A stretch of 64,000 bases of DNA from Bradyrhizobium prioriisuperbiae (GTDB lineage Bacteria; Pseudomonadota; Alphaproteobacteria; Rhizobiales; Xanthobacteraceae). The notes under the pieces are model-generated. The model did not search any database. It was not told the DNA's origin and saw only the letters and a program-made list of their open reading frames with translations. The DNA lies in NCBI RefSeq assembly GCF_032397745.1, contig NZ_CP135921.1, positions 1,116,001 through 1,180,000 of the forward strand, in the 5' to 3' direction. The translations under genes and the position numbers were made by a program. Shown piece after piece: positions 327 to 21,616 of the stretch; within the stretch, counting starts at the first letter, position 1, and each line of letters begins with the position of its first letter.

Positions 327-404
327 CTAGTGACCCGATCGAATTGGATGTTCGCTCAGAGGTGATGCGAACGGCTGCTGCAAGCTTCGAATTCGGGGCA
401 CTCG
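327..404. repeat. Degraded copy of a CTAGT-bounded palindromic element
   Basis: An imperfect inverted repeat of about 78 nt begins CTAGTGaCCCG and ends CGGGGCACTcG, with roughly 25 nt arms and a ~24 nt loop. Ends and size match the better preserved copies at 506-580 and 594-670. It is the first of three copies in tandem between glcD and cycA and is the most eroded. Confidence 0.5.
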
Positions 405-505
405 AAACATCATGATACTACGATCTCGCGGGGTCTCACGCTCGCACATCTCATATTCGGACAGCGGTCGCAGCGAACAGATACGACTATGAGAATCGGA
501 ACACA

Positions 506-580
506 CGAGTGTCCCGCTTCGCAAGTTCGTTACGTTTTCAGCGAGCTCCATACGAACTTGCGAAGCGATAAGGACACTAG
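506..580. repeat. CTAGT-bounded palindromic element, copy 2
   Basis: The left arm 506-530 contains GCTTCGCAAGTTCGT and the right arm 552-580 contains ACGAACTTGCGAAGC and ends GGACACTAG. The loop is ~21 nt. The arms pair almost perfectly apart from a 4-5 nt bulge. It is separated by 13 nt from the next copy. No reading frame or terminator-like T tract accompanies it. Confidence 0.8.
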
Positions 581-593
581 CAAATATATGATT

Positions 594-670
594 CTAGTGT
601 GCTTTATGAATGCGAAGTTCGTGAAAGCGTCTGCGGCACAGTCGCACGAACTTCGCGTTCAGCACACTAG
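594..670. repeat. CTAGT-bounded palindromic element, copy 3
   Basis: Starts CTAGTGTGCT and ends AGCACACTAG, a perfect 10-bp outer stem. The inner stem is GCGAAGTTCGTG / CACGAACTTCGC around a 21 nt loop. The inner-stem sequence GAAGTTCGTG recurs at 21540-21616, 20 kb away, which marks it as a dispersed family. Confidence 0.85.
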
Positions 671-12972: not shown

Positions 12973-13048
12973 CCGGTGTGCTGGTCGAATCCGAAGTTCG
13001 CTCCGAAGCTGCGATTGAGTGATGCAAATTTCGGATTCGGGACACTCG
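12973..13048. repeat. Degraded CTAGT-type palindromic element upstream of dctA
   Basis: Imperfect inverted repeat with arms around CGAATCCGAA and TTCGGATTCG, ending GGGACACTcG. Size (76 nt) and ends agree with the family seen at 327-670 and 21448-21616. It sits 25-100 nt upstream of the sigma-54 promoter, the zone where an enhancer would be expected. Confidence 0.55.
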
Positions 13049-20515: not shown

Positions 20516-21451
20516 TTGAACATCCCGACGGATCAGCCGGCGTCCGCCGCCAGCCAATGGCCCCCGATTGCGCGCTTTATTGCCGGGGAGCGCCGGCTTG
20601 CCGCACGGATGGCCCGCACCCCCATCTCCGCTTTTCTCTATGAGTTCCTTCGGTTCGGCCTGAAACAGGCTTGGGCCTGCCTGTTCGGCGGTATCATGGT
20701 GATGCTCCTGATCGGAACGCGGTACGCCTATCCCGACTGGCTGCCGTTGGCGCGCTACGACTTCCTGTTCCTGAGCGCCCTGCTCGTTCAGGTCATTCTC
20801 CTGGCCAGCCGATTGGAGACGCTCGACGAGGCCAAGATCATTCTGCTCTACCACGTCACCGGCACGGTGATGGAGCTGTTCAAGACCTCGGTCGGTTCCT
20901 GGGTCTATCCGGAGCCCAGCCTTCTTCGTATCGGCGGCGTGCCGCTGTTCACCGGCTTCATGTACTCCTGTATCGGCAGCTATCTCTGCCGCGTGTGGCG
21001 CCTGTTCGATTTCAGGTTCAGCAACCATCCGCCGCAATGGGCTCTCGTCGTGCTGAGTCTCGCGATCTACGTCAATTTCTTCTCTCATCACTATCTGCCA
21101 GACATCCGGATCGGGCTGTTCGCAGCAACTATCCTGCTGTTTGCGCGCACCCGCATCTATTTCAAAGTCTGGCGCAGCTATCGGACCATGCCGCTGTTGC
21201 TCGGCTTTTTGCTGGTCGCGGTTTTTATCTGGCTGTCAGAAAATATCGGCACCTTCACCCGGACCTGGGTCTATCCAAACCAGATGCAGGTCTTGTCGCC
21301 GGTGTCCTTCGGCAAATTGGGATCGTGGTTTCTGCTGCAGATCATCAGTTATGCCATGGTGGCGCTGATCAATCCCCCGCAGCGCTTTGAGGCGAACGAA
21401 GCCTCCGTTCCCTCTGTGCCGCGACAGGACAAGCGCTTGAATGAAGCCTAG
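20516..21451 (+). CDS. DUF817 family integral membrane protein
   Basis: 311 residues if the TTG at 20516 is used; the next ATG (codon 32) is still ahead of the first helix. About eight membrane helices. Conserved DUF817 segments are visible: LYHVTGTVMELFKTSVGSWVYPEP and SENIGTFTRTWVYPNQM. Function unknown. No clear ribosome site supports either start. The TAG stop (21449-21451) is part of the left tip of a palindromic element, so the element may have set or preserved this stop. Confidence 0.75.
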   Translation: MNIPTDQPASAASQWPPIARFIAGERRLAARMARTPISAFLYEFLRFGLKQAWACLFGGIMVMLLIGTRYAYPDWLPLARYDFLFLSALLVQVILLASRLETLDEAKIILLYHVTGTVMELFKTSVGSWVYPEPSLLRIGGVPLFTGFMYSCIGSYLCRVWRLFDFRFSNHPPQWALVVLSLAIYVNFFSHHYLPDIRIGLFAATILLFARTRIYFKVWRSYRTMPLLLGFLLVAVFIWLSENIGTFTRTWVYPNQMQVLSPVSFGKLGSWFLLQIISYAMVALINPPQRFEANEASVPSVPRQDKRLNEA

Positions 21452-21526
21452 TACCGCCGATCTGAAGTCCCTGCACCACTTGCCGCAAACTCGTCCCAGG
21501 GACTTCAGATCGAAAAGCGGTACTAG
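21448..21526. repeat. CTAGT-bounded palindromic element, copy 5
   Basis: 79 nt. Outer tips CTAGTACCGC / GCGGTACTAG, inner stem CGATCTGAAGTCCCTG / CAGGGACTTCAGATCG, 4-nt bulge and a ~23 nt loop. The first four bases overlap the DUF817 stop codon. The next copy begins 14 nt later. Confidence 0.85.
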
Positions 21527-21539
21527 AATCATAGATTTG

Positions 21540-21616
21540 CTAGTGCCCCTGATGCATCCGAAGTTCGTGTCAGAGAGTGCTGCGATGTATCACGAACTTC
21601 GGATGCGGGGCACTAG
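21540..21616. repeat. CTAGT-bounded palindromic element, copy 6
   Basis: 77 nt. Outer tips CTAGTGCCCC / GGGGCACTAG, inner stem GCATCCGAAGTTCGTG / CACGAACTTCGGATGC, 21 nt loop. It shares the GAAGTTCGTG core with the copy at 594-670. Its right arm supplies an ATG (21603) in frame with the following DUF2809 gene. Confidence 0.85.

Follow-up and report, generated by a model that had tools for sequence, protein, structure and literature searches.

RIME1 and RIME2 of Rhizobium are intergenic mosaic elements formed by two large palindromes and measure about 108 bp. The REP, BIME and REPIN repeats associated with RAYT comprise GTAG and CGTC families with units of 20-40 bp, as described in the accessible part of PMC3733652. 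For Bradyrhizobium, the available excerpt of PMC5082802 describes Br-REP1 and Br-REP2 as intergenic short palindromes, where Br-REP1 may have two flanking palindromes.

The repeat described here is best explained, with a probability of about 0.6, as a gene-less, MITE-like element of about 165 nt in which two different imperfect hairpins mirror each other across a spacer of some 13 nt, and which moves as a unit and is mobilised in trans. The observations behind this reading are the shared architecture, the genome-wide copies, the covarying stems, the nested composites and the presence or absence of composites with 4-nt sites at clean loci.

Hairpins identified in the window

The window is the whole stretch of 64,000 nt that was analysed, bases 1116001-1180000 of a single-contig genome of 9.08 Mb. 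Two composites (506-670 and 21448-21616) and two decayed hairpins were identified in it, with the following features:

327..404, plus strand: decayed hairpin of the family with no recognised partner (R1 E 2.3e-6; fold -29.5)
506..580, minus strand: left hairpin of composite 1, bulged on its inner arm, which faces the spacer; the outer tip is CGAG and the inner tip CTAG (R1 E 1.6e-16; fold -38.7)
581..593, plus strand: 13-nt spacer CAAATATATGATT of composite 1, the same directional spacer type as in other pairs of the genome
594..670, plus strand: right hairpin of composite 1, both tips CTAG (R1 E 7.5e-19; fold -44.8)
12973..13048, plus strand: decayed hairpin of the family with no recognised partner (R1 E 2.4e-10)
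21448..21526, minus strand: left hairpin of composite 2, tip CTAGTA (R1 E 3.9e-16; fold -43.5)
21527..21539, minus strand: 13-nt spacer joining the two hairpins of composite 2 (plus-strand sequence AATCATAGATTTG), the same directional spacer type as in other pairs of the genome
21540..21616, plus strand: right hairpin of composite 2, both tips CTAG (R1 E 1.7e-20; fold -48.3)

R1 is a covariance model trained on 48 copies, including 506-580, 594-670, 21448-21526 and 21540-21616. In a covariance search of the window it matched all six palindromes listed in the sequence-only reading (E 1.7e-20 to 2.3e-6), so that their coordinates all hold; only 12973-13048 and 327-404 are independent matches, because the other four had trained the model. 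A hairpin detector, tuned to the CTAG-type tip of these hairpins, found five of the six in the window (12973 was missed), whereas 60 dinucleotide shuffles gave 0.12 on average and never more than 1. The plain pattern CTAGTG-N55..70-CACTAG is present 61 times in the genome versus 52 for the reversed control, so the count of tip patterns alone proves nothing and the proof is in the long paired stems.

The first three palindromes had been described as three in tandem; the three hairpins are present, but they are really one composite (506-670) and a decayed hairpin 101 nt away. A CTAGT-type tip, ascribed to all copies, was found except in 506 (starting CGAG), 12973 (starting CCGG and ending CTCG) and the end of 327 (CTCG). 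The sequence GAAGTTCGTG, reported as common to the stems of 594-670 and 21540-21616, was confirmed in both, and these two copies are 70% identical. In addition, every intact hairpin is bulged on one side, as a rule by 3-4 nt, a feature that had gone unmentioned. The neighbours of composite 1 are a gene with a FAD_binding_4 domain (minus strand) and a cytochrome c gene (plus strand), consistent with the glcD and cycA named earlier as flanking genes. Composite 2 is preceded by a DUF817 gene (20516-21451), whose TAG stop codon is provided by the left hairpin of this composite through its CTAG tip (21448).

Structure of the composite

The repeating unit is a composite measuring about 165 nt, in which a spacer of some 13 nt separates two non-identical hairpins, each of about 77 nt, in mirrored orientation; it is not the single palindrome previously taken as the unit. 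Hairpin length is mostly 74-80 nt and ranges from 74 to 83 nt among 118 distinct hairpins from fetched stretches of the genome that contains the window. The outer stem is of 9-10 bp and starts with CTAGTG, the inner stem is of about 15 bp, the loop is of 21-23 nt in most hairpins with a traceable stem, and the bulge (usually 3-4 nt) is confined to the inner arm. All 55 spacer-joined pairs in the fetched stretches are mirrored with the bulges toward the spacer, as are 79 of the 81 identified in 80 named loci. In 800 kb of the congener G001 the mirrored arrangement was found in 86 of 104 pairs, the remainder being nine '++', eight '--' and one with a bulge-less partner; bulge-less single hairpins are also present in this genome.

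In the pairs that were read, each composite combines two different types of stem around a directional spacer. Viewed as possible terminal inverted repeats, the outer arms have CTAGTG and a few bases further in in common, but the stem sequences of the two hairpins differ. Pair-keeping changes on both sides were identified in 18 of 25 stem pairs. The motif GANTC, which is the CcrM methylation site, was present in the stretch formed by tip, spacer and tip in 28 of 37 composites of the genome of the window, for instance at 581-597.

Copy number and host range

The family is genome-wide. A search of the whole genome, which the sequence-only reading had proposed, gave at least 147 rows with 150 of 3451 candidates scored, some of them being the same place on both strands. 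The 800 kb of G001 contain 251 hairpins. Matches were identified in 157 of 296 genomes of the family, with a maximum of 16 candidates scored per genome. A sample of the phylum, with 12 candidates scored per genome and strict filters, gave matches in 15 of 398 genomes, all 15 within the class Alphaproteobacteria (the share of this sample from outside the class is not given). A pattern scan of named genomes gave at least 116 stretches; among the matches listed, 115 of 116 titles name what we take to be an alphaproteobacterial taxon, and one says only Proteobacteria. Nine of 72,556 plasmids matched, in Roseibium or Labrenzia and with 60% of the query covered, and none of 50,697 phages did, both searches being of low sensitivity because a single composite of the genome was the query; carriage by phages or plasmids was rejected on these counts. 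Five distinct viral stretches match one of two patterns.

Nested composites

Two systems are present in G001. The alpha system has stems with AACGTTCG and TGACGCTCG and the spacer CATCATTATGATT; the beta system has stems with CCGAATGACC and CGCAATTGCC and the spacer CAAAATCAAAGTG. At 20 loci of this genome four alpha composites were identified inside beta and two beta inside alpha, at an inner CTAG. These six cases (L231, L232, L233, L247 and two in L240) still present the hairpins and spacer of the host, and a seventh, in the cluster L228 12044-12355, has its outer spacer missing. In the 800 kb, 41 junctions share a single tip and 35 of 105 clusters contain at least three hairpins. A chimaera of alpha hairpin, beta spacer and beta hairpin is present as three copies in L246. 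On these sequences the composite appears to move as one unit. In Bradyrhizobium pachyrhizi (L138 3832-4097), a different repeat, with two palindromes that contain GCATGATC, interrupts the inner CTAG of a composite, as it seems at the TA.

Filled and empty sites

The comparison of empty sites, also proposed earlier, showed that at clean loci relatives lacking the composite have 4-nt sites. Two of the composites in this comparison are located as follows:

L305 2018-2181: composite
L306 2051-2215: composite

At one locus G066 has a single CTAG versus a composite in G204, with 3 and 17 nt of adjoining flank diverged. A further composite is common to G066 and G204, and there four relatives align with 4 nt, CTTA in all. 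The site of a composite of G088 has exactly 4 nt in 14 of 28 other genomes (12 CTCG, one ATCG and one CTCA); the remaining 14 were not cleanly readable, and for one genome a second locus was not counted. At the L306 site the composite is present in 4 of 29 genomes, with identical insertion point and orientation. Fifteen of the 25 genomes lacking it align with 4 nt: CTGA in seven, TTGA in three, and CTCA, CTGT, CTTC, CTAA and CTTG in one each. In five further comparisons a clean 4-nt site was not obtained: A66 144218 (11 nt), A66 203784, A204 208704 (about CTC), position 9053118 of the genome of the window versus G001, and L294. A composite of Bradyrhizobium Ghvi in a corresponding region, with different boundaries, was left out.

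The composites at L306 are 81-89% identical and their flanks 79-90%, which fits one old insertion as well as repeated insertion. The nearest relatives of two of the four filled genomes, G066 and G261 for G204 and G027 for G235, have no composite there, which suggests repeated insertion, and this site is a possible hot spot. The old target of a filled site may have been CTAG after all, the empty sites having mutated before or after the insertion, and empty sites may also represent precise loss of the composite in the relatives. Together with the nesting, presence and absence between relatives uphold the earlier picture of dispersed, clustered, decaying, gene-less and MITE-like repeats with signs of mobility, except for its RAYT link and for its single palindrome, which is really a mirrored pair.

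Pairing of the tips

Among 67 framed hairpins of the genome of the window, 37 have CTAG at both tips, 8 a variant outside only, 3 inside only and 19 at both tips, complementary in 14 of these 19. With laxer framing (78 hairpins) the numbers are 41, 8, 3 and 26, with 16 of the 26 complementary. In the same order, the named loci gave 95, 7, 7 and 5 (4 complementary), G001 69, 9, 4 and 3 (none complementary) and six species of the genus of G066 26, 2, 0 and 7 (3 complementary). All eight hairpins of the four genomes filled at L306 have complementary tips, and the composite of G088 has CCAG...CTGG at both hairpins, the relatives having mostly CTCG.

Variant outer tips usually differ from one end of the composite to the other, yet they pair with their own inner tips, and the CTCG, CTTA or CTGA of most relatives is not found on both sides of the filled sites. 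The complementary variants and the CCAG...CTGG of G088 versus CTCG make a plain target duplication a poor fit for the outer tips, and CTAG as such a duplication is disfavoured by these variants and by the filled sites. A target duplication of constant length agrees with the CTAG case and disagrees with L305, L288 and L306. The outer tips could be either element-borne, displacing 4 nt, or rewritten from the inner arm.

Five orthologous composites of G066 and G204 contain 13 one-sided stem changes (two deletions included) and no compensated change in 249 pairs, and arm correction in place was rejected on these numbers as the source of the pairing. Stems changed at 13 of 498 sites versus 36 of 320 unpaired sites (Fisher p 6e-7); being less changed than loops and spacers, they are conserved or corrected in place. 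The count of G.T versus A.C mispairs is confounded by the position beside the bulge. Since compensation was not seen at the distance between G066 and G204, we infer that matched variants originate elsewhere in the life cycle.

Proposed mobilisation of the composite

The RAYT link of the sequence-only reading is not supported. Y1_Tnp (PF01797) is present in 18 of 71 family genomes with a high, saturated hairpin count (15 or 16 of the 16 scored candidates) and was undetected in 53, in a Pfam search that a divergent Y1 could escape. Y1 is somewhat commoner in hairpin-positive genomes (44/157 versus 22/139, Fisher p 0.012). No hairpin or fragment was identified within 600 nt of the three Y1 loci of the genome of the window, and the Y1 gene of G001 lies about 120 nt from a truncated beta hairpin, against a background of 39 of 150 random flank pairs in that genome. 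RAYT or Y1 was rejected as the mobiliser on the 53 genomes and on these flanks at background level. Two further observations concern Y1 loci: in G001 (L250 15290-16330) a RAYT-like Y1 gene has GGTGACAGTGCACTTAATT-type repeats on both sides, which are a separate repeat system, and in L025 (G000:C1 6373209-6373989) two Y1_Tnp genes that are almost the same lie next to each other, as if from a tandem duplication.

No autonomous copy, with genes of its own between mirrored hairpins, was found in the two wide-gap mirrored pairs that were read, L020 and G001 233740-235174. The first (L020 5650-6663, G000:C1 4003649-4004662) contains an IS5-type IS (DUF4096, DDE) between two CTAGs of the composite, with ends that differ from those of the composite; the second, judged by eye, contains what looks like an IS3-type IS. 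At G000:C1 5479964-5480981 the gap within a mirrored pair is equal in size to the IS in L020, and L213 has a third wide gap of about this size.

Under the gene-less, trans-mobilised reading, an enzyme encoded elsewhere would recognise the end hairpins through the tip, the outer stem and the one-sided bulge; the diversity of the stems suggests that paired structure would count more than stem sequence. The composite would be placed tip to tip, replacing a 4-nt site that usually starts with CT and sometimes is CTAG. The outer tips would belong to the element or be rewritten by it, because they are complementary to the inner tips and can differ from the old site. Their CTAG would then be a target for further composites and for IS5-type IS, which would build the clusters. 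A transposition of its own kind, where a chromosomal alphaproteobacterial enzyme reads the hairpin structure at both ends and swaps the unit, tip for target, into a 4-nt site, with neither DDE duplication nor HUH one-sided retention, is put forward tentatively and is rather doubtful; such reading of structure would allow several systems with unrelated stems to coexist, as alpha and beta do in G001.

The composite might instead be an ordinary DDE-type MITE, its outer arms being terminal inverted repeats, CTAG (or TA) the target duplication and a known IS transposase acting in trans, for example that of a YTAR-target IS, with tips and empty sites mutated later. This fits CTAG on both sides and the single CTAG at one empty site (G066/G204), as well as the IS5-type IS between two CTAGs of a composite; in the accessible part of PMC2266754, IS711 of Brucella is described as having a YTAR target and a preference for Bru-RS palindromes. 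We consider it unlikely in view of variant tips that usually differ between ends and pair with their own inner tips, of filled sites lacking the CTCG, CTTA or CTGA of the relatives on both sides, and of the different ends of the IS5-type IS.

An improbable reading is that a Y1 HUH transposase moves the composite in single-stranded form, as an element of REP/REPIN or IS200/IS605 type, with CTAG as the cleavage tetranucleotide and the inner tip as the guide. The subterminal, imperfect and bulged hairpins, the tip-to-tip pairing, the tetranucleotide site and the slight excess of Y1 in positive genomes (44/157 versus 22/139) speak for it, but the hairpins are mirror-symmetric and Y1_Tnp was undetected in 53 of 71 high-count genomes, where divergent Y1 could be missed. 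It further expects one end to keep the old site; this is so in the canonical CTAG case and in one of the four genomes filled at L306 (CTGA), but not in L305 or L288.

Repeats that act at the RNA level or in regulation, such as terminators or RNase III sites, maintained by selection and spread by ordinary duplication, would account for strong covarying hairpins and for orthologous stems changed at 13/498 versus 36/320 unpaired sites, conserved or corrected in place, but are very improbable given the presence or absence at the same nucleotide in close relatives, the nesting, the 251 hairpins per 800 kb and no Rfam match near any threshold. The Rfam search covered window 1-23000 and gave two chance-level hits, elsewhere than the hairpins.

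Comparison with known systems

For a widespread class of alphaproteobacterial repeats, the unit is now defined and there is a target rule that can be tested. Natural experiments are available, since sites are filled in some close species and empty in others, and one genome contains two nested systems. In 500 kb sampled from one congener, 248 of 321 CTAG sites fall in hairpins that represent 2.3% of the sequence, so that the elements shape the landing places of CTAG-seeking elements. The mobilising enzyme, if found, would explain the movement of gene-less hairpin elements with no visible RAYT. The literature searched, of partial coverage, gave no account of this element, and Chen and Shapiro 2003 may describe a relative.

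The nearest known kinds that the composite resembles are REPIN/BIME, CIR, Bru-RS and RIME, where the last three are set apart by description and size only. RIME1 and RIME2 also have two palindromes and, from their description, differ in size from the 165 nt or so found here. The CIR repeats of Caulobacter and Brucella are likewise alphaproteobacterial and intergenic, with two inverted-repeat arms, a linker and GANTC sites, but measure about 110 bp versus about 165 here, a separation by description and not by sequence (excerpt of PMC2229807). GANTC is absent from the beta spacer of G001 and from the spacers read in the genus of G066.

Bru-RS1 and Bru-RS2 of Brucella are palindromes that attract YTAR-target IS (available part of PMC2266754), and here an IS5-type IS sits at the CTAG of a composite; compared by description only, they differ in their 103 and 106 bp in B. 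abortus (available part of PMC10800456) versus about 165 here. Br-REP1 and Br-REP2 are also intergenic palindromic repeats of related genera, and their consensus sequences CCGGAATCTCGAGATTCCGG and CGAGATTCCGGGTTCGG..., as given in the excerpt of PMC5082802, are absent from the consensus of the hairpins described here. Finally, the REP, BIME and REPIN repeats share with the composites the dispersed palindromes, often inverted pairs, the clustering and the presence of several families per genome, Bradyrhizobium included, whereas their units of 20-40 bp with GTAG or CGTC ends (PMC3733652, in the part accessible) differ from the bulged 77-nt hairpins with CTAG tips, for which no requirement of RAYT was seen.
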